The notes under the pieces were generated by a model, which saw only the letters and a program-made list of their open reading frames with translations, searched no databases and had not been told where the DNA came from. The position numbers and the translations under genes were made by a program. A stretch of DNA of 64,000 nt, from assembly GCA_017398355.1 (NCBI GenBank), contig JAFQGD010000064.1, positions 1 through 64,000 of the forward strand, read 5' to 3'. The DNA is from Akkermansia sp. (GTDB taxonomy: Bacteria; Verrucomicrobiota; Verrucomicrobiia; Verrucomicrobiales; Akkermansiaceae). Shown here in pieces: positions 36,990 through 63,162 of the stretch (position 1 is its first letter; the number at the start of each line of letters is the position of its first letter).

Positions 36990-37040
36990 ATAAAGAAATT
37001 TGTTCCAAGTTTTAGTGTTAGTTCCAATGGCTAAATGCCG

Positions 37041-38387: not shown

Positions 38388-38388
38388 A

Positions 38389-44876: not shown

Positions 44877-46472
44877 TCAAAGCGTGACATTTCGTCGAGA
44901 CTGAGCAGGTGACTCAAGTTTCAGCATTCCGGGAAGCAGGTTCAGATATCCGTCTGAAACGCGGTAAGTCGGCAGCTTTCGCAGTACTTCCGTGAGCCAG
45001 AGATAAAAATCTGTTCCTGTGCGTTTGCATTCCTCCACCATGGAATAGATGATAGCCGCTCTCTGACCAGCTCCCGGGGCGCCTATAAACAAACAGTTCT
45101 TTCTCCCTACCGTAACGGGACGAATGGCTCGCTCAACCTAGTTGTTGTCGATAGGCAGATATGGATTCTTCAGCCTGCTGCTCAGTTGTTGCTGTCTTGT
45201 GATGGCATAGTCTATCGCATCCTTCAACTTGTTGCGTGGAGGATTCTGGGTATCCCGATTACGTTTGGTTAGCTCTTTGAAGAATTCTTCTACGATGGGG
45301 CGGGATTGCTCTTCGCGTTTCTTCTTTACCTCTTCCGGTGGTGCTTTGCTGTCTCTTAATGCCCTTTCGATGTCGTAGAGAGGTCTGATGAGTTCTACCA
45401 TTTTTCTGCTCCAGGCCGGGTCATTGCTGCTGCATGACGCTTCTACAAACTTGCGCCGCACATGTGCCCAGCACACTTGCCATTGTGGTTTCTGATCTAC
45501 CGGCAGATTTTTCATCCAGCTTTCATATCCGCCATAACCATCGCTCAGAATGGCTCCCTCATAAACGCTTCCGCTTTTCTGCATACCATGGCGCAGCATG
45601 TGGTCAAGCACTTCTCCACTGCGGCTGTTCTGCCAATAGTAGAGCGTTGCCCCTGTATCTGCACTGCTCATGGCCCACATATAGCCATTGGTCTTATCTG
45701 ATTTGAGGCAGCGGATGGGCGTTTCGTCTATATGCAAGGCGGCTGCGTCAAGCATGAGCTCATGCTGTGCTTTCCAGACGGGTTCCAGCGCATCTGCGGC
45801 GGCCCGCACCCAGTTGCAGAGAACTCCTTCGCTTACACCTTGCAGCCCGATGCGTTCAAGCTCTTTTATCTGGCGGTAGAGGGGGAGGTGCAAGCTGTAT
45901 TTATTGTGAAGAGCCAAAGCAATAATGCTTGCCCCCATATTAGAGCCCGGAAGTATCCCCTGCGGCGCGGCTGCGTAAATGGGAGCATCCTTCCCGGCTT
46001 TGCTCCGCTTTCCCTTTTTGACGAAGCTGGGCATGCGGTAAATGTGCAACTCGAAATGACCTGGCACATATTCCAGACGACGGGAAACGCGGTCGCTACT
46101 TTCCGGCAGGCGTGTATAGGCAAGCGGGTTCTGCAGCACTTCATCTGGAATGACGAGATGCTCTATCTCTTTGGTTACGGTTGCAGAGAGTCGTCGTTTT
46201 CTTTTCGGTTGTGCAGAACTCAGGGCTTTTGTCTGGTCTGTAGCCGGTAATTCTGCGGTTGCCTTATCTTGTCCTTCCGGTTCCTCCAGAGCAATCTTTT
46301 CGAGAATCAGCTTCTCGCTTTTTTTACCGAAGAGCATGCGCCGCATCATGGCTACCTCTTCTCTCAACGCCTCATTTTCCTCCTCCAGATGGCGGTTGGA
46401 ATCCACGAGCATCTGAACCTTGTCTGCTTGAGAGAAGGGCAATTCTATCTGCTGGAGTTCGGTTGCGCTCAC
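44877..46472 (-). pseudogene. IS66 transposase, disrupted by an amber codon
   Basis: The frame codes 531 sense codons of IS66 transposase: an N-terminal leucine-zipper/HTH part (ELQQIELPFSQADKVQML), a zinc-finger-like and catalytic DDE part (AALHIDETPIRCL, ILSDGYGGYESWM, WQVCWAHVRRKFVEA), and the end PIDNN*VERAIRPVTVGRKNC. TAG at 45140-45138 sits where the family has Leu, Ala or a similar residue before VER. That Glu is the third catalytic residue, so the truncated protein cannot act unless amber is suppressed. Both parts (45138-46472 and 44877-45137) are in one frame. Confidence 0.9.
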
Positions 46473-47210: not shown

Positions 47211-48395
47211 TCATATTTCTGCTTCTTTTCGAATTTGGCGACAACGAGTTAATAAATCATGATAATACTTTTTCTTCTCTTTGTATTTTCTCCGCTTTTC
47301 TCCCCACACCAGTTTGCTTAATAAGCTAAATTGGCGATTTCTTTTCAATATGTAATCTTCATTCGCCAATAAAAGCAGATTACGCTTTAGTTCTGAATTT
47401 TCTTGTTCTCTCAGCCTATTCATCTTTATCATTTCGTGAATCATGGGACGAACATACGGTGGGAGATGGTAATAAAAAGCAAGGTCCAAAAACTCAGGTA
47501 AGCGAGACCCTAACTTATAATGGTCTACCAATTCGCATATACAGGCCCAAGCTTCATGTTGATACTCACGAGCACCCCACCAATGGATACAATTTTTAAT
47601 GTTCGTTATAAGCTCAATTTCTAAAAAGGAAGGCGTTTCTGCCGAATAACCAAACCTTTCTCTTATATTCCTTTCTTTCCAGAAATCCAAACAAAACTCG
47701 GCAATCTTAACATAATCAAAAATTCGCCTTCCTCCCTGCTTATTTTTGTGCTTCCCCATAATGCTATCTTCTCTATAACGGTACGAATATAGCTTATCAC
47801 GAAGGAAATACACGTTTTTGGCCAAAGATAAACAACAACGCGAAAATGCTAAATCTTCCATGTGAAGTCCTACGGGAAATAAAACTCCGCATCGATCTAA
47901 AAAACTTTTCTTCCATAATTTATCCCATACGCCCGCATAAATACTCGTAATGAGCTTTTCGGTAACTGCTTGTTTTCCCTCAAACTTCATTTCTAGTCCT
48001 GGTGCAATTTTGTCACCATTTTCATCAAACATTCGCACCCCAAATTGAATAACATCTACATCTATGTCACAGCAGGAAATAGCTTTTTCAATTGCTTGAA
48101 CGTCAAAATAATCATCACTATCAAGCATGGCGATCCATTCTCCTGTCGCATAACTAAGCGCCGTATTTCGTGCAGCTGAAAGCCCCGCATTTTCTTGCTT
48201 TATGATAATGATTCTTGCATCTTCTTCTGCATACTTCCTCAAAATAGCAGAACTACCATCTGTAGAGCCGTCATCCACACAAATAATTTCTATATTTGTA
48301 TAGGTTTGGTTACATGCGGATTTCATGCACTCACTTAAGTACTTTTCTACATTGTATACAGGTACAATAATTGAAACTTTTGGAAAATATTTCAT
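47211..48395 (-). CDS. GT2 glycosyltransferase
   Basis: A 394-residue GT2 enzyme for polysaccharide synthesis: VSIIVPVYNVEKYLSECMKS, ICVDDGSTDGSSAIL, the catalytic MLDSDDYFDVQAIEK and HMEDLAFSRCCLSLAKNVYF. No membrane helix. Its C-terminus carries the tail KLVWGEKRRKYKEKKKYYHD, found in three paralogs upstream. It is the last gene of the leftward operon. AT-rich. Confidence 0.92.
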   Translation of the reverse strand: MKYFPKVSIIVPVYNVEKYLSECMKSACNQTYTNIEIICVDDGSTDGSSAILRKYAEEDARIIIIKQENAGLSAARNTALSYATGEWIAMLDSDDYFDVQAIEKAISCCDIDVDVIQFGVRMFDENGDKIAPGLEMKFEGKQAVTEKLITSIYAGVWDKLWKKSFLDRCGVLFPVGLHMEDLAFSRCCLSLAKNVYFLRDKLYSYRYREDSIMGKHKNKQGGRRIFDYVKIAEFCLDFWKERNIRERFGYSAETPSFLEIELITNIKNCIHWWGAREYQHEAWACICELVDHYKLGSRLPEFLDLAFYYHLPPYVRPMIHEMIKMNRLREQENSELKRNLLLLANEDYILKRNRQFSLLSKLVWGEKRRKYKEKKKYYHDLLTRCRQIRKEAEI

Positions 48396-48409
48396 AAGAC
48401 AACATTTAC

Positions 48410-49600
48410 TTATATTTTAAATAGCTCTTTACCTTCTTTGCGTAATTTCCGACAAACGCGCATTTTTTCTTTACATGCACTCTTGATTTTGTCGTACTTT
48501 TTTCGTGTATCACCCCATGTCAAGAATGTCAAAAACTGTGCTTTTTTGTATTTCCAATAAATATCACGAGAGTTAGCAAGTAGTAACATATCTTTTCGCA
48601 ATTCAGGCGCTTGCCTGAATTCTTCTTTATGAGCCTTAATCATTTCATGTATCATAGGCCGAGTATATGGAGGGATATAGTAATAGAAGGCAACATCCAA
48701 AAACTCGGGCAATCGGTTTCCTAATTCATACTTATCAACCACTCGGCGCATTTCTTTCCACGCATCATGAAGATACTCGTTTGCGGCGAGCCGATTTAGA
48801 TGTTGTACCGTATAGCGAAGACTAAGTAACTCTAGTGTGGATGCATCTTTCTTCCCTAAACGATTCTCTATATGATTTGCTCGCCAGAATGCTATACACA
48901 TATCTGCAATCTTCAAATAGTCTAAAACACCCGCCCCTCCTTTCTTTGCTAAATGAAGATTAAAACTACTGTTTTCTCTTTGTCGATACGCATACAAGCC
49001 CTCTGAAATACCAACTATTTTCCGTGCTACAGAAATACCCATTCTTACAAATGGCAAATCCTCAAATTGAATACCTTCAGGACAACGCACACAATATTTA
49101 TCTAACATTGATCGTCGCCAAAGCTTCGCGCAAAATTCGGTAGGAAAGTTTGATATCACTTCTAGTGATGGAGAGCATTTTCCCTCATATCTAAACTTGC
49201 ATAATTCCTTTTTCTCTACATCCGTTTCTTGAAACTTCAATATATTAAAATACACAAGATCAACATCATCAGAAACTTGAGAAATCGCTTTTTCTATCGC
49301 AGTTACATCCAAATAATCATCACTATCCACACCTGTAACCCACTCTCCTGTGGCTATATTCATGGCAGTATTTCGAGCAACAGCTTGTCCTGAATTTTTC
49401 TGACTTAATACTACTATGCGCTCATCTCGTACCGCATATTCATGTAAAATTTTGAGACTTTCATCAGTCGACCCATCATCTACACAAACAATTTCCAAGT
49501 TTTTGTATGTTTGATTACATAGTGAATCTAAACATTCTCTTAAATACTGTTCAGCATTGTATACGGGGGTGACAATTGAAACTTTTGGGGTAGCTTGCAT
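48410..49600 (-). CDS. GT2 glycosyltransferase
   Basis: A 396-residue paralog of the next gene leftward: VSIVTPVYNAEQYLRECLDS, VDDGSTDESLKIL, catalytic GVDSDDYLDVTAIEK, IQFEDLPFVRMGISVA. The C-terminal half (FLDVAFYYYIPPYTRPMIHE) is close to that of the 47211 gene, so the two are recent duplicates. Its tail is TFLTWGDTRKKYDK. AT-rich, starts 29 bases after the preceding gene. Sugar donor and acceptor unknown. Confidence 0.92.
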   Translation of the reverse strand: MQATPKVSIVTPVYNAEQYLRECLDSLCNQTYKNLEIVCVDDGSTDESLKILHEYAVRDERIVVLSQKNSGQAVARNTAMNIATGEWVTGVDSDDYLDVTAIEKAISQVSDDVDLVYFNILKFQETDVEKKELCKFRYEGKCSPSLEVISNFPTEFCAKLWRRSMLDKYCVRCPEGIQFEDLPFVRMGISVARKIVGISEGLYAYRQRENSSFNLHLAKKGGAGVLDYLKIADMCIAFWRANHIENRLGKKDASTLELLSLRYTVQHLNRLAANEYLHDAWKEMRRVVDKYELGNRLPEFLDVAFYYYIPPYTRPMIHEMIKAHKEEFRQAPELRKDMLLLANSRDIYWKYKKAQFLTFLTWGDTRKKYDKIKSACKEKMRVCRKLRKEGKELFKI

Positions 49601-49629
49601 TTTGAAATAAAATAAGATTATTTTCTAAA

Positions 49630-50886
49630 TTAATTAAATAATTGATACCAAAATTCCATCTTAATGTCTCGGCAGCGGCGAATCATTTTTTTCAGACACG
49701 CTTTCTTCTCTTTGTTCTTTTTGCGATGTTCACCCCATGAAAAAAAAGTTTTAAGCTGAGCCAAACGATAATATCGAAGAAGCCGATTATAAGAGGAAAG
49801 GAGACGTACCTTACTTAACATTTCTATATCAGACTTCATAATCACCGTAGTGGTTGGTGATGTTGTAGTCTTTGGGGCCTCTTTTTTTTCATAAAAATGA
49901 TTCATTGCAGACACTACCGCAGGTGGCATAAAATAATGTTGTGCCGTCCAAGGGTTTTGCAATATCTGAATTCTCAGCGCATGTTTATCTATCATGTTTT
50001 TCCATATAAACCAAGCTTCATCAGCAAGCGCAGGAGGACAGTCGCGCAGCATGCAGCGATAGACGTATTCTACCAACGAGATTTCGGCTTGTGATGGAGT
50101 TTCCATTTCGTATCCAAACCTCTGACGGATATTGTGTCCTTTGTACCACTCTAGGATGAGATCGCAAATAACCAATAAGTTGAGTGTTTTTTTATCTGTA
50201 CGCTTATATACTTGCTCCATGATACTGCCCACGCGGCCTCTTCTGTAATAATAAAGGGCTTTTTCATTATTTTCAAAGTACATGTACTTGCTATGTGACA
50301 TCATACAGTACCAAAAATACAAATCTTCATTGATTAAGCCTAAGGGGAATCTCAACTTGAGAGATTCCAAAAGTGAGCGACGCCACAATTTACCCCAGAA
50401 GCTTACATTCGTTCGTTGTAATAGAGCTTCGGTTACTTTGTATTTACCTGTTGCTATTGGATTGAAATATGCATTACCAAGTCGTTTTTCTGGAAATCCA
50501 TCTGCAAAATCCCACACATTGAAACGGATCATATCAACATCTTCATCTGCCGTGTGAGGTATACAATTTTCAATCGCGTTTACGCTCAAATAATCATCAC
50601 TATCTACTCCTATCACCCACTCACCTACAGCGACGTCCAAAGCTGCATTTCGAGCCGCTGAAAGGCCAGCATTTTTTTGACGAATTATCTTAATTCGCTC
50701 ATCCATTTCTGCATATTTATCGATTATTTTTCCAGAATCATCTGTCGAACCATCATCGACACAAATTATCTCTAGCTTCTTGTAAGTTTGGTTACAAATT
50801 GACGTAAGACAATCATCCAAATACAGTGCAACATTATAAATCGGCACAATCACGGACACCAATGGATTAAAGATTTCTTGTTTCAT
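49630..50886 (-). CDS. GT2 glycosyltransferase
   Basis: 418 residues: SVIVPIYNVALYLDDCLTS, VDDGSTDDSGKIIDKYAEM, catalytic GVDSDDYLSVNAIEN, and GLINEDLYFWYCMMSH. Its C-terminal half differs from the two paralogs downstream, with a Thr-rich linker (TTTSPTTTVIMK) and the tail LKTFFSWGEHRKKNKEKKA. AT-rich. It lies 14 bases after the CDP-glycerol-type gene. Confidence 0.92.
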   Translation of the reverse strand: MKQEIFNPLVSVIVPIYNVALYLDDCLTSICNQTYKKLEIICVDDGSTDDSGKIIDKYAEMDERIKIIRQKNAGLSAARNAALDVAVGEWVIGVDSDDYLSVNAIENCIPHTADEDVDMIRFNVWDFADGFPEKRLGNAYFNPIATGKYKVTEALLQRTNVSFWGKLWRRSLLESLKLRFPLGLINEDLYFWYCMMSHSKYMYFENNEKALYYYRRGRVGSIMEQVYKRTDKKTLNLLVICDLILEWYKGHNIRQRFGYEMETPSQAEISLVEYVYRCMLRDCPPALADEAWFIWKNMIDKHALRIQILQNPWTAQHYFMPPAVVSAMNHFYEKKEAPKTTTSPTTTVIMKSDIEMLSKVRLLSSYNRLLRYYRLAQLKTFFSWGEHRKKNKEKKACLKKMIRRCRDIKMEFWYQLFN

Positions 50887-50900
50887 AATATATAAGATTA

Positions 50901-52244
50901 TTAGGAAAGAGTATCAGCCATTTTCATCAATCTCTCACAATTGCCACCTCGTTGCCAAAAAATCTCATTATTTTTATTAACTAACTCAGTCTCTAATTCA
51001 AAATTGTGGTCAACATAATATTTTACCCGTTCTATAGCAGTATTCAAATCCCTGCACCCATTGTACAATAACTTATCAATTACATCTGCTGCAATCTTAG
51101 TTTTGTCTCGCGGATGTGAATAGTTCAGATCTGTATCAAATCCATAGTAAATAACTGGCACATTACGATACATAAAATCAAAACTTATACTACTAAAGTC
51201 AGTTACGCACAAATCAGCATCTTTAACCATAGTGGATATATTTGTTGTTGGAACAATATTTACATTTTTGAAAATGCTCGCCTTAAAATTACTGTCTTGG
51301 TACATAAGACAATGGTGTGGCGCTAAGTATACTTGAACATCGTTTCGATTTAACAGAATTTCATTTACTTTATCTATAAATGTTTGTATTCGCGCTACAT
51401 ATTCAGGGCGTAAGCTTTTATCCTCCCAAAATGCCGCACGCATCGTGAAAAATATAAAAATCTTTCTTGTTTCTTTATGTTTCTGAGCAGGAGGCAAGAG
51501 ATCCCACCGAGGTATACCAGAACAAATCATTCGTGACTCATCATATCCCAATCTATCGTATAACTCTTTTGTTTTGATGGTAGGGACAACATGTGCGTCA
51601 AAAGATTTATCGTTATAGTAATGCGCAGCCCACTCATTAATCAAGATTACTCCATGCTCAATGAATATGTATTTTGCAAATGGAAGCTGACGAAGTATAC
51701 GACTCAGATCAAATCCAAAACTGCACATTATTAATCTACTCTGCGCAATGATATCGGCATAATCTGTTAGCAACTGCAATTCATTTGCAACCGGTATAAT
51801 ATCTTTTAATTTGTTTGCATCCTTGAGTTTTTGAAATAAAGGATTTTGCCAACGTAAAACATATTTAGAAGGTATGCCTTTTTCCTGTAAATACTGAAAA
51901 AGTGTCCAAGCATCTATTGCTTCTGGATGCGGGGACATCAATGCGTCAAAGCAAAGTACATAGCGTTTCTCTTGTGGCATATCTTTATTGAGTAACCCCA
52001 GTGTAAGAATTTTTTGTTCAGCGGCATAGAGTTTACTTTTCCACTCTATTCTATCTAAAATACTCTCCATGCGCCCATTTGCGTTTGAATCATGTCTAGT
52101 CACTTTCAAATTTTTCTTACCAACACAAATTCCAAACAAATACTTTTTGCGTACGTTGTCTTTTTCACGTTCTTCATATACTTTTGCTCCAGAAACGTAT
52201 ATTCGTTTTCCTTTTTTATCTTTTATTGTACCAAATAATTTCAT
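50901..52244 (-). CDS. CDP-glycerol glycerophosphotransferase-family protein
   Basis: 447 residues of the TagB/TagF type: IFIEHGVILINEWAAHYY (with the conserved HG), SGIPRWDLLPP, YLAPHHCLMYQ and DADLCVTDFSSISFDFMYRN. This family transfers glycerophosphate or ribitol-phosphate from CDP-alditol to a lipid or glycan. In a diderm that suggests a phosphodiester-linked capsule or O-chain. The TagD-like cytidylyltransferase in the 37-38 kb operon could supply the donor. Very AT-rich. Confidence 0.88.
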   Translation of the reverse strand: MKLFGTIKDKKGKRIYVSGAKVYEEREKDNVRKKYLFGICVGKKNLKVTRHDSNANGRMESILDRIEWKSKLYAAEQKILTLGLLNKDMPQEKRYVLCFDALMSPHPEAIDAWTLFQYLQEKGIPSKYVLRWQNPLFQKLKDANKLKDIIPVANELQLLTDYADIIAQSRLIMCSFGFDLSRILRQLPFAKYIFIEHGVILINEWAAHYYNDKSFDAHVVPTIKTKELYDRLGYDESRMICSGIPRWDLLPPAQKHKETRKIFIFFTMRAAFWEDKSLRPEYVARIQTFIDKVNEILLNRNDVQVYLAPHHCLMYQDSNFKASIFKNVNIVPTTNISTMVKDADLCVTDFSSISFDFMYRNVPVIYYGFDTDLNYSHPRDKTKIAADVIDKLLYNGCRDLNTAIERVKYYVDHNFELETELVNKNNEIFWQRGGNCERLMKMADTLS

Positions 52245-52251
52245 TACTATT

Positions 52252-53307
52252 CTAGTGTTTTTTGTTATTGCATGGTAATTTTATTCCAAATATCCGGATA
52301 AATATCCTATCCTCTCTGATTTGAAAAACCAACAGAGGGATTCCCAAAAAGGAGAAGCAAACTTTTTCTGGACGTGCGTAGAAAAAAAGTTTAAATAATT
52401 TTATAGAAGAAATAAGCCAAGCCGTCTCTAAGACATATGAGCGCGTTAAACCTTGTTCTCGAGCTATTTTGTATGAGCGTTTCTTCAAACTTTCATGCAT
52501 ATATTTAGGTGTATACTCTAAAGCACACCAGGCATATGTTTGGAGCAGATAAAGTTCAAACCTAGTAGGAGATGTTTCACCAAAAACAGCGGGAAGGCCT
52601 TTCGTTCGATAAATGTTGAATATGCGCTGCAAAACATCGAGATGTTCGGCACCTCGTTCCGAGATGTCGTGCATAGTACTCTCATCTCTCTGCCAATAGT
52701 AATACAATCGCTCTTTCAAATAATAAATTCCGCGAGCGTAGGGGGCAATAGTGAAATAAAAAAATGCATCTTCATATCTTATTCCTTCTGCAAATTTACC
52801 TCCTAGCGCCATCACAAAACTTTTTCGCCACAATTTTGTCACAAAATAACAGTTTGTCTTTTGAATCAAAGCTGGACAAACTCGCTGCATGCCGGAAAAG
52901 GTAGGATGATGGTATGCACAATCACGGACTAAACCATTTCCGACACTTTCGCATTCGCAGCTAATAATATCCACATCATCTCGCGTGTACGTTAATAATT
53001 TTTCATACATATCAGGCGAAATGTAATCATCACTATCTACACCCGTAATCCATTCTCCACGCGCAATTCTCAAAGCAGCATTTCGCGCAACTCCCTGCCC
53101 TAAATTATTTTGGGTAATGAGAGTGATACGAGAATCCTTTGCTGCATATTTGCGTAAGATATTTGAGCTATCATCAGTCGAACCATCATCAACACAAATG
53201 ATGTCAAGATTCGTATACGTTTGAGAACAAACACTATCCAAACAACGTCGTAAGTATGAATCCGTGTTGTATACGGGTATGATGACTGTTAACAAAGGGG
53301 TGTTCAC
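52252..53307 (-). CDS. GT2 glycosyltransferase
   Basis: 351 residues: LTVIIPVYNTDSYLRRCLDS, VDDGSTDDSSNIL, catalytic GVDSDDYISPDMYEK, GIRYEDAFFYFTIAPYAR. Shorter C-terminal part than its neighbours, ending in a hydrophobic and basic stretch (VCFSFLGIPLLVFQIRED). It starts 14 bases before the previous gene's end region on the same strand and belongs to the leftward operon. AT-rich. Confidence 0.92.
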   Translation of the reverse strand: MNTPLLTVIIPVYNTDSYLRRCLDSVCSQTYTNLDIICVDDGSTDDSSNILRKYAAKDSRITLITQNNLGQGVARNAALRIARGEWITGVDSDDYISPDMYEKLLTYTRDDVDIISCECESVGNGLVRDCAYHHPTFSGMQRVCPALIQKTNCYFVTKLWRKSFVMALGGKFAEGIRYEDAFFYFTIAPYARGIYYLKERLYYYWQRDESTMHDISERGAEHLDVLQRIFNIYRTKGLPAVFGETSPTRFELYLLQTYAWCALEYTPKYMHESLKKRSYKIAREQGLTRSYVLETAWLISSIKLFKLFFYARPEKVCFSFLGIPLLVFQIREDRIFIRIFGIKLPCNNKKH

Positions 53308-53320
53308 TTTATTTCTAAGA

Positions 53321-54493
53321 CTAGTAATAATGCTTTTTCATAAGAGCACGGCAAGCGCGGACTTGTTCGTGCAACATTTTCGTTTGCCGTTGTTTTACAG
53401 CACGGGATTTTCCCCAAGAGAAGAATGTTTTAAGTTTAGCCAAGCGGTATCGGCGCAACAAGTTTGGATATTCAGCATTGGCTTTATCTCTTGCAAGATT
53501 TTCCTGATGAGCCACCCACTCTTTCTCGCTTGGAGTTTCCGCAACGATGCGTAAAGCAACACATCGCTCAGCAGGAGAAAAGTACTTCCATGTAAATGAT
53601 GCATCCTGAAAAAAGGGGCGAAGCTGCAAGCGAAATCCTGCACAGAATTTTTCCTTATATTGTGGCAAGATGCGCACATAGGCCCAGATATTAGCGTTAA
53701 AAAGGTGGAATCCCCATGCTTCTTTGTGTTTAGGTAATAGATGATAACGTTGCATCACTTCATTGGCCAAACAAGACATATCAAGCGTAGCCATCGCTTG
53801 CTTTCCAACAGCACAACCGGACGAGTTTTGGTCAGGCTCAACACGATAATGCAGTAGAGGTTCCTTCACGATGCTTATACGCCGGGCACAAGCTAAAATC
53901 TCCATCATGAAGGGCAAATCCTGATAGGTGGCACCTGCTGTTTCGATGAATGGGACTGCTCGCAACAGCTCGGTCTCATACAAACAACTCCATATACTAG
54001 GCATATGGATAAGAATTGGTTCCCACTCCGTTGCTTTGAATACAGCGTCCGGAGCATCTCGCAAATCAGCTACCGGTTCCGTATAAAGAACATTTCGCTT
54101 CTTGCCCCGCACACACGAATTGTACTTCCAGAACATGCATTTTACCACATCTGCCTTGGCATCAATGGCTCGCTTATAGAGCTTCTCATACATATCCGGC
54201 TCAATCCAGTCATCGGATTCCACGATGCCGATGTAGGGGGCTCGGGCGGCAGCGATGCCGATGTTCACGGCTTTGCCGTAGCCGCCGTTGGGCTGGTGTA
54301 TAGCAACCACGCGCGGGTCTTGAGCGGCGTAGGCATCTACCATGGCGGGGCAGGCATCCGGCGAGCCATCATCCACCAAGATGATTTCGATATCGTCAAG
54401 CGTCTGCGCAATGATGGAATCCACACACTGGCGCAGGTATTTCTCCACCTTGTAGATGGGGACGATTACGCTTACTTTTGGGTGCTCACTCAT
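53321..54493 (-). CDS. GT2 glycosyltransferase
   Basis: About 390 residues. VSVIVPIYKVEKYLRQCVDS, ILVDDGSPDACPAMVDAYAA, and catalytic GIVESDDWIEPDMYEK show GT2. Its first 115 residues are nearly identical in pattern to the rightward gene at 58849 (YAAQDPRVVAIHQPNGGYGKAV). The tail is AKLKTFFSWGKSRAVKQRQT. Start at MSEHPKVS (54493), overlapping the end of the GT32-like gene (ATGA). Higher GC than the genes after it. Confidence 0.92.
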   Translation of the reverse strand: MSEHPKVSVIVPIYKVEKYLRQCVDSIIAQTLDDIEIILVDDGSPDACPAMVDAYAAQDPRVVAIHQPNGGYGKAVNIGIAAARAPYIGIVESDDWIEPDMYEKLYKRAIDAKADVVKCMFWKYNSCVRGKKRNVLYTEPVADLRDAPDAVFKATEWEPILIHMPSIWSCLYETELLRAVPFIETAGATYQDLPFMMEILACARRISIVKEPLLHYRVEPDQNSSGCAVGKQAMATLDMSCLANEVMQRYHLLPKHKEAWGFHLFNANIWAYVRILPQYKEKFCAGFRLQLRPFFQDASFTWKYFSPAERCVALRIVAETPSEKEWVAHQENLARDKANAEYPNLLRRYRLAKLKTFFSWGKSRAVKQRQTKMLHEQVRACRALMKKHYY

Positions 54494-55392
54494 ACTGCCC
54501 TGACTTTCTTTTCTTTCCTTTTCCGAGTAAGTGGTATACACCCTAATAATCTGCCACAATCATTCGAGACAGACAGAAAAGGGATAAAACCAAACAAATA
54601 ATATCGGCTCATCCCTTGTTGTTCTTTTACAGAAAGTAAGCGAATGCCGCCCACACGATATTGCGTAACGCTACGGTTTATTACAGAAGTGCTAAAATCG
54701 TATTCCGGTATGTGTTTGTGATGGAGAAAATAATCAAACTCCGGATTTAACCAACTACCCCCCCACCAATGAATGGCATAGGTGCGGGATGTGATACAAC
54801 CGGGAGAATATTCTGTCTCATAAGCCCATGGATAAAAATAATCAGAAGGGTAGAGTGTAATACCTTGGTGACAGACTGGTTCAGGACTGTATTTATAGGC
54901 TAAACCGAAGCGAGTGCGCAAGACATGCGTGAGGATATCAGGTATTGTGTAGAGGTTTGATTCCCAAATATCATTGTGGTAAAAAGCGAGCATTTCCGCT
55001 AGCAGTTGGTGATGAGCGACAGCACCACAAATACTCATATTGACGACGTGCGGATTTTCCCACCCCAGGAACAATTCAGCCCCTTCTAACAATGGAGAAA
55101 AATCCCGTTCCAAAGTCATATCTGTGTCCAAATACACGCCCCCGTGTGTATGCAACACCTTACAGCGCACATAATCTGCCACAAAAGCCCACATCCCCCG
55201 TTCATATACAGCGCGTAACCATGCACACTCTGACAACTCTTTCTCAAAATCAAACCACGGTGTACGTTCCTTCCCTATGTGTATAATCTCCCAATCCGAT
55301 GCCATCTCGCGCTGCCAGTTGCGCAGACACATCTGCGCACTGGCGGGGATTTTATCCCCAAACCATACATAGAATATGCGGTGTGGTATCAT
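54490..55392 (-). CDS. GT32-like glycosyltransferase (DXD sugar-binding)
   Basis: About 300 residues starting MIPHRIFYVWFGDKIP, the usual GT32/Gly_transf_sug N-terminus. The donor site is GGVYLDTDMTLERDFSPLLE with the DTD motif, and the C-terminal HWWGGSWLNPEFDYF is typical of this capsule group. Start at 55392 overlaps the GT8 stop (ATGA). A hydrophobic C-terminus (YYLFGFIPFLSV) may touch the membrane. Confidence 0.88.
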   Translation of the reverse strand: MIPHRIFYVWFGDKIPASAQMCLRNWQREMASDWEIIHIGKERTPWFDFEKELSECAWLRAVYERGMWAFVADYVRCKVLHTHGGVYLDTDMTLERDFSPLLEGAELFLGWENPHVVNMSICGAVAHHQLLAEMLAFYHNDIWESNLYTIPDILTHVLRTRFGLAYKYSPEPVCHQGITLYPSDYFYPWAYETEYSPGCITSRTYAIHWWGGSWLNPEFDYFLHHKHIPEYDFSTSVINRSVTQYRVGGIRLLSVKEQQGMSRYYLFGFIPFLSVSNDCGRLLGCIPLTRKRKEKKVRAV

Positions 55393-56417
55393 ACGGCCTG
55401 AGAGGGGATGGTTCTTTGCAGTGCTTTTAATTTGCGTACTATATAGCTGTTTTGTTTTCCCTGACCAACAAGCCACAGAACAAGGCGAATGAAGAGGGAA
55501 CGGCGCAGCTTGACGGATGCATCCAGCAGCGTAGCCAAGACCTCTTGCTGATGAGACAATTCATTTTCCAAAAGCCCTCGCTGAAAACGTGCAGCAAAAG
55601 GAGTTTGAGCAATGCAATCCCGGTACGCAGCTGCCCACGGACAACGTACGGAAAGCCATGGGCGCATACGATTTCCCCCGGTAAAATGCAAGATATACGG
55701 TTGCTCAGCGTGTTGTACTCCTAATTGCCAGTCAACATCAACCACAGCATTCCATTTATGCTCCAACGGGCGATAGCCGGAAACACACATCAGGTTCAAT
55801 ACGTCCTGATCCGGGCACTCCAACATCTGCGCCAACTGCTGTGTTTTTTCAAATAGTCGTTGCTCCCAACCGAGTTGTCGCATTGCTTCGCAGTTCAATA
55901 GCAAGACGCCTGCGTTAAAATATGTATGCGTTTGAGGTAATCCCACTTTCTGCTTCAATTGCCTCCCCCATTTCTGCAAAGGCGCGGCACTACCACCCGT
56001 AGGCATGAGCTCATAACGATACGGTACCGCACCCAGCGGGTAATCCCCCAATTCTGTGTCGTATAGTTCCCCTACATCCCCGCATACCAATATATCGCAA
56101 TCCAAATACAACGCTTTTTTCTCGCTTGGATGCAAGCCCGGAATTAGGTATCGGTAATACGTCTTGCGCGAAAAGTGGCCTATATCCGGTAGTCCTTCAA
56201 AGCGAGATTCATCTACCGGCAAAAAGTCCAACACGCTTGAGGGGGCAAGCTTTTGTACCATTTCACAGAGCAAATTCTGTGTCTCTAGCTTTAGCCCCCC
56301 ATCTAATACATAAAAGTGTATGTCCCTAGATGTGTGTTGCAGCACCGAGTGCAATACGCCCGCTAGACAGGTAGCGTATTGTTCGTCTGCTATCAAATAT
56401 ATGGGGATTGTAGTCAT
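55389..56417 (-). CDS. GT8-family glycosyltransferase
   Basis: 342 residues with GT8 marks: IYLIADEQYATCLAGVLHSV at the start, the metal-binding ALYLDCDILVCGDVGELYD with DCD, YFNAGVLLLNCEAMRQ, and CPDQDVLNLMC, then HKWNAVVDVDWQ and the His in YILHFTGGNRMRPW. Retaining enzyme, usually for galactose or glucose. Its start is 24 bases after the previous gene. Confidence 0.92.
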   Translation of the reverse strand: MTTIPIYLIADEQYATCLAGVLHSVLQHTSRDIHFYVLDGGLKLETQNLLCEMVQKLAPSSVLDFLPVDESRFEGLPDIGHFSRKTYYRYLIPGLHPSEKKALYLDCDILVCGDVGELYDTELGDYPLGAVPYRYELMPTGGSAAPLQKWGRQLKQKVGLPQTHTYFNAGVLLLNCEAMRQLGWEQRLFEKTQQLAQMLECPDQDVLNLMCVSGYRPLEHKWNAVVDVDWQLGVQHAEQPYILHFTGGNRMRPWLSVRCPWAAAYRDCIAQTPFAARFQRGLLENELSHQQEVLATLLDASVKLRRSLFIRLVLWLVGQGKQNSYIVRKLKALQRTIPSQAV

Positions 56418-56441
56418 ATAAACACGATTTCTCCATCATTA

Positions 56442-57407
56442 TCAACCGCCACTACGCAACAACTTCATGTAGCGCAACCATCGCGTTATTTTATGCCCTC
56501 GGAATTGCAAGCATCCCAATGCATCTAGCTGCCTGAGTACAGTGGAAAACTCGCGCCAAAGAGGCGGTTGACTTTTTTGTGGGCTACGCCGTATACGATT
56601 TAACACCTGCTTGAGAATGTCCGGGAATATTTCGCGCAGCACATGTTCTCGATCTTCCTCAGGCGCTTCTTTGCACGCATCCCATACATCTGCCAATCCC
56701 AATCCATAGTCCGCAATATGCTCAGGCAAAAAGGGTCTCGTCATAATACTCTCCCGGTTATCGGTATAGTAATACAAAAGCTCTTGCATAATGACCGCCT
56801 TTGGCCTGCGCAAAAGAACTTTCACTATATAAGGGTAATCCTCAAACAAAATAGGGGCAAAACTTAATCCGTCCAACACTTCTCGCTTGTATAACATTGT
56901 GCACGCAGAACACTGTATCGCCCAACGCCCCCGCCGCCGCCTATACTGCAACGGATTTGTTACAACTTTGTGTTTCCACTGGTGATGCTGCACCTCTGCC
57001 AATAGAGGCGGTTCAAAATCCTCTGCAACCTTTTCGTATCTGTATGCTACGACATCAGCATCATGCTGTATTGATAAAGCCCTCGTGGCTTCCAATAATT
57101 GAGGATGAATACTATCATCTGCATCCAAAAAGGATATATACTTCCCGCGCGCATGGGCCATCCCCATATTCCTAGCTCCCGACAACCCTCCGTTGGTTCG
57201 ACGTGAAAGAACGCGTATCCTCTCATCGTTCCCAGCGTATTCCGCTAGTAGCTTCGCGCACCCATCGGGCGAATTATCATCTACACACAGCAGCTCCCAG
57301 TTGCTATATGTCTGCGCGATGACACTATCCACACACCTCCGCAGATACCGTTCTACATTGTAAATCGGTACAATTACGCTTACCTCCGGTGTCATTGGCT
57401 TGGACAT
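56442..57407 (-). CDS. GT2 glycosyltransferase, first gene of the leftward operon
   Basis: 321 residues: VSVIVPIYNVERYLRRCVDS, LLCVDDNSPDGCAKLLAEYA, catalytic FLDADDSIHPQLLEA and ILFEDYPYIVKVLLRRPKAV. It is first in the leftward operon and is driven by the promoter at 57465-57493 with its embedded palindrome. Confidence 0.92.
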   Translation of the reverse strand: MSKPMTPEVSVIVPIYNVERYLRRCVDSVIAQTYSNWELLCVDDNSPDGCAKLLAEYAGNDERIRVLSRRTNGGLSGARNMGMAHARGKYISFLDADDSIHPQLLEATRALSIQHDADVVAYRYEKVAEDFEPPLLAEVQHHQWKHKVVTNPLQYRRRRGRWAIQCSACTMLYKREVLDGLSFAPILFEDYPYIVKVLLRRPKAVIMQELLYYYTDNRESIMTRPFLPEHIADYGLGLADVWDACKEAPEEDREHVLREIFPDILKQVLNRIRRSPQKSQPPLWREFSTVLRQLDALGCLQFRGHKITRWLRYMKLLRSGG

Positions 57408-57464
57408 GAATAATCAGGATGCGTTCTAACCTGCGCTTACCTCTGCGGTAACCCTACGTTGTCC

Positions 57465-57493
57465 AGTATATCGCATTTCAAATGCGATAACAC
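57465..57493 (-). promoter_or_regulatory. Leftward GT-operon promoter with operator site 1
   Basis: On the minus strand TATACT (57470-57465) is the -10 box and TGTGTT lies 17 bp upstream as a weak -35. The spacer holds the palindrome TATCGCATTT-C-AAATGCGATA (57469-57489). Confidence 0.65.
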
Positions 57494-57622
57494 ATTTGGC
57501 TTTCATTTCCAATGAGCTGTGCAATAAACGGTGAAGATTTCTACCCGACTACCCAAAAAAAACACAGTATCGACCAACTCCCTTATTCTCCCAAATTTCT
57601 CAATAAAATTTAACTTTTTTCT

Positions 57623-57651
57623 TGTATATCGCATTTGAAATGCGATATACT
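57623..57651 (+). promoter_or_regulatory. Rightward GT-operon promoter with operator site 2
   Basis: TTGTAT (57623-57628), 17-bp spacer, TATACT (57646-57651). A perfect 27-bp palindrome covers it: arm GTATATCGCATTT (57624-57636), centre G, inverse arm to 57650. The arm matches site 1, with centres 158 bp apart. The rest of the gap 57408-57713 holds nothing else I can name. Confidence 0.75.
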
Positions 57652-57713: not shown

Positions 57714-58796
57714 ATGCCAACCGATACACAGCCTGCGCTCAGCATCATCGTACCCGTGTACAACAGCGGGGCGTATCTGCGCACCTGTATAGAAAGCTTG
57801 AAAGCTCAGGATTGTGGAGAAGAGCTGGAGTTCATCTGCGTGAACGACGGTTCCACCGACAGCTCATCTCGGGAATTGGAAGCTTGGGCAGCATGCGACT
57901 CCCGCGTGCGGGTGCTGCACCAAGCCAATGGGGGCTATGGCAAAGCCATGAATACAGGCTTGGCCGCCGCGCGGGGGGCATACATCGGCATCGTAGAGCC
58001 GGATGATTGGGTAGCCCCCCACATGTACCGCACCCTGCTCAAATGGACGAAACACACGCAGGCAGATATCATCAAAGGGGCCTACAGCGAAGAAGGCTGC
58101 GGCCACAAGCGTGTGGATGCTCGCTTCCGGAGCTTAAAAGATGGCGCCACCTTTGCCCCATTGGATTATCCGGAGTTTTTGTTGGGCTCGCCTTGCATCT
58201 GGACCGCCATCTACCGCAAAGAGATGATTGATGCGGCTCATATCCGTTTCAACGAAACCCCCGGAGCCTCCTACCAGGATTTTGGTTTCTTCATGCGCAC
58301 TTGGGCGGCGGCAAATAGCATCACCATCACCCACAAGATACTCTACCACTACCGCAAAAACAACCCCACTTCCAGCATCCGCCGCCAAGAAGAAGGCGCG
58401 TGGGCGCTTTTGCAGGAAATCGCCGACACGCAGGACCTGTTCGACTCCCTCGCCGATACAGAGGCCAGCAAGCGCTCACTTTTGCTGCGCCGCGTTTTTC
58501 ACTCCATGGTGGCAGATTATAAATCCCGCGTGAATGAAACCCTCATTGGTTGGTTGCGTGAATGCTCACAAATCCTGCGTCGCCTTGCCCCTATCGACAA
58601 GTTGATGCCGCAATACTTCACCCGCCACGAGTGGCACGACCTCGTCATCCTCTACACCCGCCCCGGTAGCTACCCCAAAGCTCGCAAAATGGGCGCCTCT
58701 GTCCTGCAACGCATCTTCTCCATCCGCTCCGAGGCCGGGCGCCGCTATGTGCGCTTCCTTGGCGGCAAGTTCAAAATCGGGAAGAAAAGTTCCTAA
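57714..58796 (+). CDS. GT2 glycosyltransferase, first gene of the rightward operon
   Basis: 360 residues: LSIIVPVYNSGAYLRTCIES, FICVNDGSTDSSSRELEAWA, GGYGKAMNTGLAAARGAYIG, catalytic IVEPDDWVAPHMYRT, and the acceptor region ETPGASYQDFGFFMRTWAAA. A basic tail (KFKIGKKSS) ends it. It is transcribed from the promoter at 57623-57651. Confidence 0.92.
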   Translation: MPTDTQPALSIIVPVYNSGAYLRTCIESLKAQDCGEELEFICVNDGSTDSSSRELEAWAACDSRVRVLHQANGGYGKAMNTGLAAARGAYIGIVEPDDWVAPHMYRTLLKWTKHTQADIIKGAYSEEGCGHKRVDARFRSLKDGATFAPLDYPEFLLGSPCIWTAIYRKEMIDAAHIRFNETPGASYQDFGFFMRTWAAANSITITHKILYHYRKNNPTSSIRRQEEGAWALLQEIADTQDLFDSLADTEASKRSLLLRRVFHSMVADYKSRVNETLIGWLRECSQILRRLAPIDKLMPQYFTRHEWHDLVILYTRPGSYPKARKMGASVLQRIFSIRSEAGRRYVRFLGGKFKIGKKSS

Positions 58797-58848
58797 CCCC
58801 ACCCCGATTCTCCCCCCCCCTCTCTCCACCACGCAACGAAGACACATC

Positions 58849-59841
58849 ATGCCCCACAAGCAAACAGCGCCCCAAGTGAGTGTGGTTGTCCCCATCTACA
58901 AGGTGGAGAAATACCTGCGCCAGTGTGTGGATTCCATCCTCGCGCAAACCCTTGCGGATATTGAAATCATCCTAGTGGATGATGGCTCCCCGGATGCATG
59001 CCCCGCCATCGTAGATGAATACGCTGCCCAAGACCCGCGCATCATCGCCATTCACCAGCCCAACGGTGGCTATGGCAAGGCGGTCAACACCGGAGTGGCC
59101 CGTGCCTCTGCCCCCTATATTGGTATCATTGAATCCGATGATTGGGTGGAGCCGGATATGTATGGAGTGTTGCTGAAAGAGGCGCAGAGGCATGATGCAG
59201 ATATTGCCAAATGCTGGTTCTACGATTTTTTGGACACGCCGAACAAATCACACACAAAGCCCTTTCCGCAGCAGCAGCCCCCACCGGAAGGGGTGGCTTT
59301 CACCATCACAGCATGTCCCCGGTTGCTCTACTATCACCCCAGTATTTGGACGTGTTTGTACAAGGCGGATTTTCTCCGGCAGCATGGCATCCGCATGCAG
59401 GAAATGGCCGGCTCCGGCTGGACGGATAACCCCTTCCAGGTGCAAACCCTCTGCCTCGCACAAAAAATCGTCTTCATCAACAAGCCATATTATCATTGGC
59501 GGCGGGTGAATGAAAGAGAAGCAGATGCTTTGAACGACTACCGCATTCCTTTCGAGCGCTGCGATTTTATTCATGCTTGGCTCAAGCAACAAGGCATACA
59601 AGATGCAAGCATCCTAGCCAATCTGTACGCGCGCGAGCTCAACTATGTGCTCATCGTTTCGCACATGCGCCGTATCGCGGATAAATCAGACTGCTGCAGG
59701 CGCATGAAGGCGCTGTGCCAAAGGATGAAGCCTGAGATTCTGAAACAAGCCCCCCTCAACCGCAAAACCCGCAAGGCATATAGGCTCTGCTCGCTTTCTC
59801 CTGCCTTGTTTCTTTTTACCCGCCGCCTTTCTATGAAGTAA
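58849..59841 (+). CDS. GT2 glycosyltransferase
   Basis: About 330 residues: VSVVVPIYKVEKYLRQCVDS, IILVDDGSPDACPAIVDEYA, catalytic IIESDDWVEPDMYGV. Its first 115 residues closely match the leftward gene at 53321, while the rest differs. Start at MPHKQTAPQVS (58849), 52 bases after the previous stop. Rightward operon. Confidence 0.92.
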   Translation: MPHKQTAPQVSVVVPIYKVEKYLRQCVDSILAQTLADIEIILVDDGSPDACPAIVDEYAAQDPRIIAIHQPNGGYGKAVNTGVARASAPYIGIIESDDWVEPDMYGVLLKEAQRHDADIAKCWFYDFLDTPNKSHTKPFPQQQPPPEGVAFTITACPRLLYYHPSIWTCLYKADFLRQHGIRMQEMAGSGWTDNPFQVQTLCLAQKIVFINKPYYHWRRVNEREADALNDYRIPFERCDFIHAWLKQQGIQDASILANLYARELNYVLIVSHMRRIADKSDCCRRMKALCQRMKPEILKQAPLNRKTRKAYRLCSLSPALFLFTRRLSMK

Positions 59842-59929
59842 CCTCTACCACACATTCCATAAGCATCCCTCATGCTCCGAATTACAAAATAAACAAATCA
59901 ATCAAAACCATTATATCCCCTCAAACGAC

Positions 59930-61339
59930 ATGACCAAAATTCTCTATTACAACTATGTAAATTTCTGGCAGGAAAAAGGTGGCGGCGGTGTATCTATTTA
60001 TCAAAAAAATCTTCTTGACCACTTTTGCAAGAGAGATGATTTCAACGTCAGCTTTCTGAGTGCCGGCACTCGGTACAACCTGACAACAAAAAAAGTATAC
60101 ATCAGGCGTAGTCTGACCCAATACCCCGGATGCAAATGCTACGAACTCATCAATTCACCCGTCATTGCACCTGCTTGGAAAGCATTTAATAATCTGACGA
60201 ATTTCTTCAACAAGGATGATAAGCGTGTACTCAACACTCTTATTGACTTTATCAAAAAGCAAGGTGGATACGATATTCTTCACTTCAACAACATAGAAGG
60301 TCTACCCCTGAATGTGCTGGAAATCAAAAAAGCATTTCCAAACATGAAGATTGTCTTCTCTCTTCACAACTATGTATTCTTCTGCCCAACAGCGCAGTTA
60401 TTCCATAACAGGAGATTCTGCGTATGTGACACTAAAGACAGGTGGAACGACTGCCAGAACTGTTATGTGATGCAACCCATCACCAAAAAAGAGCTTATTA
60501 AAAACTGCGAAGGGATTGTCCCCACTAAACTGCTCTCTTCTATCTTTAAAAAAATATGTAGAACGTTTTTCTATAAGAAAAACCCCATTCCGTATTCACC
60601 CACCATGGTAACCCCCCGTGAGCTCATAGACAACTATCCGCAGCTCATCGTGGAAGAAGCCAATAAATATGTAGATGTTTTCATCTCGGTTTCCCGACGT
60701 GTCAAGGAGATTGCAACATCTTACGGTATCGACGAATCGCGAAATAAAGTGCTCTACATTGGCACCAAGTTTGCAGAAATTCAAGAAGGCAAACAAAAGT
60801 ACGCGCCAAGTAAAGATAAATTAACTGCAGCATACCTTGGTTATGCCCGCATTGATAAGGGATTCTATTTCCTTTTGGAAGGCTTGCGTCAACTCCCTCC
60901 CGAGCAAGCAAGCAAACTTCATATCAAGCTCTGTGCCGCTGGTTTGCCGGCTCATGATGCAGATGAAATCCGCTCCCTCGCACCCAAATTCGCCGGGGTC
61001 GACATTATTAATGGATTCACCCACGAAAATTTACCTGAAGTTCTCAAAGATGTTAATCTCGGCATTGTGCCGGTTGTCTGGGAAGACAACCTCCCGCAAG
61101 TTGCCATTGAAATGGTGTCGCAAGGCATTCCCATTCTGTGTAGTTCGGCAGGTGGTGCTTCTGAACTCAGCACAGCAGAACACTTTAAGTTCATGGCAAA
61201 CTCCATCCCTGATTTCCTTGATAAATTCAAGTATTTCCTCGATCATCCCGATACTGTCTACTCTTATTGGGAAGGCCACGATAAACTGAAAACAATGAAG
61301 GAACATGCGCAAGAATTGCTTGATGTCTATAAATCTTAA
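59930..61339 (+). CDS. GT4-family glycosyltransferase
   Basis: 469 residues of the GT-B fold: an N-terminal half with KILYYNYVNFWQEKGGGGVS and FSLHNYVFFCPTAQLFHNRR, including a Cys-rich insert (FCVCDTKDRWNDCQNC), and a C-terminal half with YLGYARIDKGFYFLLEGL and EVLKDVNLGIVPVVWEDN, ending with the donor-binding EMVSQGIPILCSSAGGASEL. A retaining transferase for the same glycan. AT-richer than the gene before it. Confidence 0.92.
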   Translation: MTKILYYNYVNFWQEKGGGGVSIYQKNLLDHFCKRDDFNVSFLSAGTRYNLTTKKVYIRRSLTQYPGCKCYELINSPVIAPAWKAFNNLTNFFNKDDKRVLNTLIDFIKKQGGYDILHFNNIEGLPLNVLEIKKAFPNMKIVFSLHNYVFFCPTAQLFHNRRFCVCDTKDRWNDCQNCYVMQPITKKELIKNCEGIVPTKLLSSIFKKICRTFFYKKNPIPYSPTMVTPRELIDNYPQLIVEEANKYVDVFISVSRRVKEIATSYGIDESRNKVLYIGTKFAEIQEGKQKYAPSKDKLTAAYLGYARIDKGFYFLLEGLRQLPPEQASKLHIKLCAAGLPAHDADEIRSLAPKFAGVDIINGFTHENLPEVLKDVNLGIVPVVWEDNLPQVAIEMVSQGIPILCSSAGGASELSTAEHFKFMANSIPDFLDKFKYFLDHPDTVYSYWEGHDKLKTMKEHAQELLDVYKS

Positions 61340-61404
61340 CTTCTGACATTTCTATAGATTCAAGTTCCCGCCACTCAACAACCATTTAAACAAAGCTTAC
61401 TACT

Positions 61405-63162
61405 ATGTTATACCCATTAGCCAACGTCATATTCCCTGAGGAAAAACACAGACCTTATGGCTCACTCTTCTACACTCATTTTGCTAACAAAATGTATTTC
61501 AACACGTGGATGAATGCATTTGCGGCAAAAAAATACAATTATTACTGCGAATTGGGCACGCTTCACTTAAAGATTGAAGCTGTCGGCTCCTATCGTTTGG
61601 AAGTCGTTGGCAACAATCGACAAGAGGGACGCCCCAATGAAGACCATGTGCTTTTTTCCCAAGAGGTTCATGATAACGCATGCATTGCCATTCCCGGAGC
61701 CGAGCGTTACGATGCAGTCTTCCTTACTATCATCCAAAATTCAGAAAATCCGGCCATCATCAAAGGCGGAGCATGGTGTACAGATGCCAAGCCCTTGCGC
61801 CAAAATAAAATGGCAGTCGTTTCCTGCACGTTCAAGCGAGAAGAATTTATCACTAACAACGTGGCCCTGTTTGAAAAGTTCCTTAAAGAAAGGGAGGACA
61901 TGCAAGGGCGCATCAAGCTTGTTGTGGTGGACAACGGTCAAACTCTTCCCGACTCCATTGTTTCCGACAATGTTGAGCTGCACCCCAACATGAATACCGG
62001 CGGTGCCGGTGGCTTTACCCGTGGCCTCATCGAGGTCATGCAAAAGGATGCGGGATTCACCCACGTCTTGTTTATGGATGATGATGTGGAAATGATTACC
62101 GAATCGTTCTACCGCACATTGGCCATTTCAGATCATCTCAAGGAAGAATTTAAAGATTCTTTCGTAGGTGGGGCGATGTTGGATATTGAAAATCGCACCA
62201 ACCAGTATGAAGGACTCGCCATCCATGACGGTTTCTTTGTAAGGGGGCTCGTTCAAAATCTTGATATCAACCACTACGAGAACGTCATGTATTCCAATCG
62301 CTTTAATCCCGACATGTTTAAAGCGGATGCCCCCTACCTGAGCCAAGGGTGGTGGTACTGCATGTTCCCTCTCTCGTTCGCTGAAAAAACCGGGCTTCCC
62401 ATGCCCTTCTTCCTGAGAGCGGATGATGTAGAATGGAGCTGGCGTGCTAGTGCACTTGGTACTCATTTCATCACGCTGAATGGCATTTTCATCTGGCATG
62501 CGGCATTCATGTGGCGTGTATCCAAAGTCACGGACTACTACTACCTGCAGCGCAACGCCTTTTTCATGCAGGTCATTCACAACCCGCACTTCGCCTCATT
62601 CTTCAAGATTCATTTCCACCATACAAAAGAATATCTTTTGTCCACCTACGATTATCCGGCCATTGAAATTTACATCAAGGCTCTTCAGGATATCCTGAGA
62701 GGCTCTGCCATCTTCCGTGAGAATCCGCAAATCCACTGCAAGATTCTGGCCGAATTGAACAGCAAAAATCAATGGATTGATTGCCCGAATGAAGAAGAAT
62801 TGCGAATTGCTGCCGAGCGCCAAACGCGCCCCAAAAATTGGCGTAAGCGTATTTATAAATGGAGCAAAAAAGGCAAATATGCCCCCAATTTCCTTCGCAA
62901 GAAACGCGCCATAGCACTCGACTGGTTCCCGGATCCGCAAACATTCCAAATGACGCGTTCTGTCAAAGTCTATCATCTTGGCACTAAGAAATTCTGTATT
63001 CGCCACTACGATAAAAACCTGCTCAAGCAATACAGAAAGCAGATGGATGATTTGATTAATCAAATTGATGCGCGTTATGATGAATTGAGCAAAGATATCC
63101 ACCAGGCATACGATGAATTCAGAACGCTGGACTTCTGGAAAAAATATCTCAACATACAATAA
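61405..63162 (+). CDS. GlfT2-like galactofuranosyltransferase
   Basis: 585 residues. An N-terminal beta-rich domain (LYPLANVIFPEEKHRPYGSL, TLHLKIEAVGSYRLEVV) precedes a GT2 core with VVSCTFKREEFITNNVA, TGGAGGFTRGLIEVMQKD, the catalytic LFMDDDVEMITESFYR and the acceptor block PFFLRADDVEWSWRA with HAAFMWRVSKVTDYYYLQRN. This order is that of mycobacterial GlfT2 and bacterial galactofuranosyltransferases. UDP-Galf must come from a mutase (glf) outside the window. Confidence 0.9.
   Translation: MLYPLANVIFPEEKHRPYGSLFYTHFANKMYFNTWMNAFAAKKYNYYCELGTLHLKIEAVGSYRLEVVGNNRQEGRPNEDHVLFSQEVHDNACIAIPGAERYDAVFLTIIQNSENPAIIKGGAWCTDAKPLRQNKMAVVSCTFKREEFITNNVALFEKFLKEREDMQGRIKLVVVDNGQTLPDSIVSDNVELHPNMNTGGAGGFTRGLIEVMQKDAGFTHVLFMDDDVEMITESFYRTLAISDHLKEEFKDSFVGGAMLDIENRTNQYEGLAIHDGFFVRGLVQNLDINHYENVMYSNRFNPDMFKADAPYLSQGWWYCMFPLSFAEKTGLPMPFFLRADDVEWSWRASALGTHFITLNGIFIWHAAFMWRVSKVTDYYYLQRNAFFMQVIHNPHFASFFKIHFHHTKEYLLSTYDYPAIEIYIKALQDILRGSAIFRENPQIHCKILAELNSKNQWIDCPNEEELRIAAERQTRPKNWRKRIYKWSKKGKYAPNFLRKKRAIALDWFPDPQTFQMTRSVKVYHLGTKKFCIRHYDKNLLKQYRKQMDDLINQIDARYDELSKDIHQAYDEFRTLDFWKKYLNIQ

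Follow-up and report, generated by a model that had tools for sequence, protein, structure and literature searches.

Gene Content of the Locus

The window analysed here, a stretch of 64,000 nucleotides, belongs to an Akkermansia genome of 2.26 Mb in 67 contigs. Two groups of genes with functions in glycan synthesis diverge from a short intergenic region. The leftward group, a probable operon judging by its gene spacing, comprises nine genes on the minus strand (47211–57407). A preliminary description had counted nine glycosyltransferases here; there are indeed nine genes, but only eight are glycosyltransferase-like (six GT2, one GT8, and one Gly_transf_sug/Caps_synth), and the remaining Glyphos_transf gene is CDP-glycerol glycerophosphotransferase-like.

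The rightward group, also a putative operon, occupies 57714–63162 on the plus strand within the window and encodes two GT2 proteins, a GT1-type (group-1) glycosyltransferase, and a 585-aa protein whose match to galactofuranosyltransferases is far below the cut-off. It seems to continue on the contig to about 68763, where three more proteins are encoded: one that begins like FrhB, one of 515 aa with no family assignment, and a UDP-galactopyranose mutase that scores above the cut-off. Since its genes include this mutase, the right operon may produce a glycan that contains galactofuranose. Among the loci compared, none has both operons in the same arrangement, and a close full-length homologue was found only for the first gene of the right operon.

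An IS66-family transposase gene (45138–46472) is located just downstream of the left operon. Beyond it and an M16 peptidase gene lies a second minus-strand group (36057–41821), which encodes LicD, a nucleotidyltransferase/oxidoreductase fusion, an aminotransferase, an FrhB-like protein, and a polysaccharide pyruvyl transferase.

Paired Palindromes between the Operons

The intergenic region contains two palindromes at the positions first described: TATCGCATTTCAAATGCGATA at 57469–57489, and TATCGCATTTGAAATGCGATA at 57627–57647, within a perfect 27-bp palindrome (57624–57650). The spacing of 158 bp between their centres was also confirmed. The two copies had been called identical, which is true of the arms; the centre base, however, is C in the left copy and G in the right copy, and the sites therefore form an inverted pair. 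The predicted left recombination site (57469–57489) has its core 19-mer, ATCGCATTTCAAATGCGAT, at 57470–57488, as an exact match and inverted partner of the right site. The core of the predicted right site (57624–57650), ATCGCATTTGAAATGCGAT, is found at 57628–57646. From this inverted arrangement, the segment predicted to invert extends between the two centres (57479–57637).

Viewed as an inverted repeat, the pair consists of 25-nt arms of 100% identity separated by 137 nt and flanked by AGTATA and TATACT. Inverted repeats around a short intergenic segment are the layout of an inverton. No such palindrome is expected by chance in the window (100 shuffles, even with three mismatches allowed), and an Rfam search of the window gave no match.

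Split-Promoter Geometry

The sequence TATACT, which matches TATAAT at five of six positions, adjoins each site on its outer side, facing left at 57465–57470 (minus strand) and right at 57646–57651 (plus strand), as had been noted. A -35-like box had likewise been assigned to each site; the two boxes are unequal. The right inner end of the segment (57614–57628, plus strand) carries a T-tract and a -35 half, CTTTTTTCTTGTAT followed by A, which now faces right and scores +7.0 bits against a -35 profile. The other inner end (57489–57502, minus strand; AAGCCAAATGTGTT read outward) scores -20.4 bits and lacks the -35 half. The profile was built from 63 related elements with the window element left out, and on its scale genuine ends average 9.5 bits (standard deviation 4.9); only 0.28% of random inner 14-mers equal the score of the right end. 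Measured against plain TTGACA at a 17-bp spacer, both ends match at only three of six positions. A simple sigma-70 scanner reported no promoter at the window sites, owing to how little the -35 half resembles TTGACA.

The same geometry is found in the family of related elements. Reading outward, most have a T-tract followed by CTGTAC, CTGGAC or CTTGAC at one inner end, abutting the site, and ATACT is common immediately beyond the site. Written out, the layout is TTGAC, ATCGCATTnnnAATGCGAT, ATACT, which is equivalent to TTGACA, a 17-bp spacer, and TATACT. Across 70 elements, some of them mutual homologues, the mean number of -35 matches (out of six) is 4.2 at the better inner end and 2.3 at the other, against a random baseline of 1.7 per hexamer, or 2.3 when the better of two hexamers is taken. 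In 55 of the 70, exactly one inner end has at least four matches. Among these 55, the -10 half is present on both sides in 16, only on the side opposite the -35 half in 25, and only beside it in 11.

In the window, the assembled orientation would favour the right operon. The predicted transcription starts would lie near 57458 and 57658, about 50–56 nt before the start codons at 57407 and 57714.

Site Pairs across the Genome and the Genus

Further pairs occur in the same genome at C20:20345/20479 and C28:39360/39504 and near C48:27110, along with a degenerate pair at C48:31026; contig C36 has a single site. The C48 pairs are decayed copies. The genes adjoining these other pairs are surface-related wherever a match was obtained: next to the C20 pair, an O-acyltransferase resembling DltB that falls below the family cut-off, and next to those on C48, a POMP-repeat protein and a weak match to PEP-CTERM. 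Between 0 and 43 palindromes are present per genome in 36 genomes of the genus, and 17 of the 20 named stretches that carry the palindrome come from Akkermansia assemblies of goat or roe deer gut origin. Because the palindrome is found mostly in these assemblies and in relatives of the same genus, the species of the window is probably a ruminant-gut Akkermansia. A palindrome widespread as a repeat unrelated to promoters would have counted against the preliminary description; widespread it is, but its sites are tied to promoters.

The centres of the sites are informative. Strand-exchanging recombinases require arms that are common to all their sites, and a centre that is shared only within a pair. 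In 38 pairs picked by their arms alone, the centre triplets match in inverted orientation in 34, compared with a mean of 9.6 and a maximum of 19 in 10000 shufflings of partners. The triplets differ among loci and agree within a pair, as in the target sites of tyrosine recombinases. Common arms with pair-specific centres argue for sites of a strand-exchanging recombinase and not for repressor sites, since the operator of a dimeric repressor would be a symmetric promoter site independent of any partner.

There is at least one exception to inverted pairing: at L080:4713–4875 and L114:1499–1661 the sites are 144 bp apart and both read ATCGCATTTTAAATGCGAT, and hence are direct by their centre base.

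A different arrangement was observed at L218 (G023:C26:39500–51200), where 9.4 kb contain six sites that have one common centre, TCG, and lie in both orientations. With five of the six there is a repeated leader of about 190–210 bp beside paralogous genes for PEP-CTERM-type surface proteins of 203–246 aa. This resembles a shufflon-like cassette cluster; G007:C23:27811–30893 and G007:C57:8316–8817 were noted along with it.

A Candidate Recombinase

The genome of the window encodes six PF00589 proteins (one of them matched twice); no serine resolvase or recombinase was found in it. By inspection, two of the six look like XerC and XerD; the remainder are members of a family that has 2–21 matches per Akkermansia genome. 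The best candidate enzyme, on comparative grounds, is a tyrosine recombinase of 335 aa (C29; G000:C29:4715–5719; PF00589 above the cut-off), encoded between serS and htpG by a gene with no stop codon interrupting it.

One clear orthologue of C29 per genome is present in 41 of 76 genomes, at a threshold of 312 bits or more (the next group scores below 269). At least two sites with CGCATT or CTCWTT-type arms occur in 40 of the 41 genomes with C29 and in three of the 35 without it (Fisher p = 7e-17, a value that overstates the association because the genomes are related). For CGCATT sites alone, the figures are 21 of 41 and three of 35; the CTCWTT arms, which had been met earlier in pairs, were added after this result was seen. 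The exceptions are G012, G018 and G028, which have sites and no C29, and G090, which has C29 and no sites. Mapped onto a tree of 25 C29 proteins, arm type needs two changes, compared with 6.3 in shuffles, a pattern that kinship alone could also give. The recombinase gene lies between serS and htpG in the three genomes examined; those of G089 and G060 are 61–67% identical to C29 at the protein level, while htpG is 93–96% identical, and serS 97% in G060.

Recombinases of the C58/C56/C5 type were rejected as the enzyme. Counting a best match of at least 300 bits as presence, they occur in 29 of 40 genomes, 17 of which have sites, and are absent from 11, nine of which have sites.

In the Akkermansia recombinase family, of which 67 of 73 proteins could be parsed, all 67 have Asp three residues ahead of the Arg in the RHTFA motif; the usual His is found there in XerC from the same genome. 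In addition, inverted repeats whose arms resemble ACAGCATT..AATGCTGT are paired at or just before the start of many Akkermansia tyrosine-recombinase genes (L121, L123, L124, L127, L136, L144, L145, L148, L149, L153, L155, L157, L165, L169, L170 and L173), many of which are thus apparently under invertible promoters. In the genome of the window, at L049:2238–2406 (G000:C56), a separate pair with different arms, TACTCTTT..AAAGAGTA, covers the predicted start of a recombinase gene.

A Probable Inversion Switch between Two Operons

Inverted pairing at a preferred spacing, centres matched within pairs, a -35 half at one end only, and sites at contig ends together point to site-specific DNA inversion. 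A tyrosine recombinase encoded elsewhere in the genome, for which C29 is the best candidate, would exchange strands at the centres of both sites and turn over the segment of about 158 bp between them, a form of phase variation. Each site would also provide the 17-bp spacer within a sigma-70-like promoter, with the -35 half and T-tract inside the segment at one end and the -10 half, TATACT, outside. Because only the -35 half is inside, inversion would detach it from one -10 half and join it to the other, re-orienting a promoter element toward the genes. With TATACT on both outer flanks and divergent glycan operons, the pair would act as an either/or selector: the right operon would be on as assembled, and the left operon would be on after inversion. 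From the sequence comparisons, a probability of about 0.84 is given to this reading as a whole. The preliminary description was thus right to place the palindromes within the divergent promoters of a surface-glycan locus and, probably, to regard them as a switch.

Comparisons of orientation are of two kinds. Among elements with sister arm motifs, and not CGCATT, homologous inner segments were found in opposite orientations relative to their flanks in two recombinase-gene elements of G023 (L156/L157, 89% identity over 159 bp) and in a tandem pair in L076 (71% over 129 bp); opposite orientations were encountered only between such homologous elements. For CGCATT elements, about seven independent homologous comparisons gave the same orientation in every case and no flipped homologue. 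Assemblies tend to keep intact only those elements that have one dominant orientation, so these comparisons are weak evidence against inversion. Sites are also found near left contig ends eight times, compared with 0.45 expected, although two of the eight come from one element. One contig of G009 starts with ATATACTC, 72 bases before a homologue of the right operon's first gene; as its sequence indicates, this contig is broken at the site. A further indirect line in favour of inversion is the published behaviour of the A. muciniphila cps1 element, described below.

A less favoured explanation, which is considered unlikely, is a frozen former inverton, in which the sites persist while this copy no longer inverts, leaving the right operon fixed on and the left operon off. 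The lack of a flipped CGCATT homologue among the comparisons agrees with it, as does the contig, from a metagenome-assembled genome, which is intact across the site and therefore implies one dominant orientation in the assembled population. Against it, the arms and centre in the window are perfect over 25 nt, whereas the C48 pairs are decayed; TATACT is retained on both outer sides, and a candidate recombinase gene with no stop codon is present.

Somewhat less probable again is the original proposal, in which a dimeric repressor binds the palindromes as a pair of operators and shuts off both promoters together, perhaps through a loop. In its favour, perfect palindromes separate the -35-like box from the -10 box in each of the divergent promoters, and their centres are near 15 helical turns apart. 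Across the family, however, spacings range over 132–199 bp, are mostly 142–147 bp and are not restricted to whole helical turns, and pairs at these distances also occur at loci with a single gene direction. A repressor leaves unexplained the centre triplets that vary among loci and yet match in inverted orientation within a pair, the -35 half at only one inner end, the opposite orientations of homologous segments, the contig-end sites, and the phyletic match of the recombinase. Neither silencing of both operons at once nor looping is therefore supported, and the evidence points to site-specific inversion. That the pair is a MITE-like mobile repeat with terminal palindromes, unrelated to regulation, is barely credible: some species do have many copies per genome, but inner segments match almost only between homologous loci and not between different elements of one genome, and neither locus-specific centre triplets nor a fixed promoter geometry would be expected of such a repeat.

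Site-specific inversion in the window would mean that a single flip trades one surface glycan for another, rather than merely turning a capsule on or off. A broader proposal, held at even odds, is that Akkermansia has a genus-wide switch in which the site is the promoter spacer and only the -35 half moves, in which the recombinase between serS and htpG has changed its arms together with tens of targets per genome, and in which other recombinases behind invertible promoters form a layered network. By the split-promoter rule, one could then read from an assembly which state many of these elements are in, and the variation of the arms among species (CGGATT, CGCATT and CTCWTT) would offer a means of following the joint change of a recombinase and dozens of its sites. 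C29 is a testable enzyme; in the available parts of PMC13343947 and PMC11892184, no recombinase of the switch family is named.

Comparison with Known Invertible Elements

The closest known system is the cps1 element of A. muciniphila, for which inversion has been reported to switch the capsule on or off (Gracia et al. 2026, PMC13343947). Both orientations were reported, one of them enriched in capsulated cells, with mixtures in mice and humans (PMC13343947). The inverted-repeat motif in that report, CGGATT..AATCCG, is taken from Jiang et al. 2019. Like the window pair, the cps1 inverton has 6-bp arms around a 3-bp centre, lies beside a polysaccharide locus, and belongs to the same genus. The window arms, CGCATT..AATGCG, share this layout and depart from the published motif by one base per arm. 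A. muciniphila-type genomes have CGGATT..AATCCG pairs of similar length, and no C29 orthologue was found in them at the 312-bit threshold. In 13 of 16 CGGATT elements (from related genomes, with both ends listed), exactly one end carries TTGAC at the equivalent position, and because of this the split-promoter design seems to be genus-wide, with arms that differ by species. The two elements differ in output: cps1 acts as an on/off switch for one locus, while the window pair is flanked by divergent operons, each of which has a -10 half.

Akkermansia inverton group 138 is similar to the window pair in genus, inverted-repeat family and association with intergenic promoters, and a promoter motif has been reported for it (PMC11892184). 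In the available parts of that study, no invertase is assigned to the group and invertases are described as generally not under inverton control, in contrast to the many Akkermansia recombinase genes with an inverted-repeat pair at their start that were found here. The split-promoter design is not stated in the available parts of PMC13343947, PMC11892184 or PMC3090145; the 2019 paper that defined the motif lies outside this comparison.

In Bacteroides fragilis, capsule promoters are reported to be invertible, and the tyrosine recombinase Tsr19 drives one of them (PMC3090145). As in the model for the window, a short segment flipped by a recombinase controls polysaccharide operons, with many sites per genome. 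The phylum and the repeats are different. At the B. fragilis capsule loci the whole promoter is generally described as lying inside the invertible segment, whereas in the model proposed for the window only the -35 half would be carried within it.
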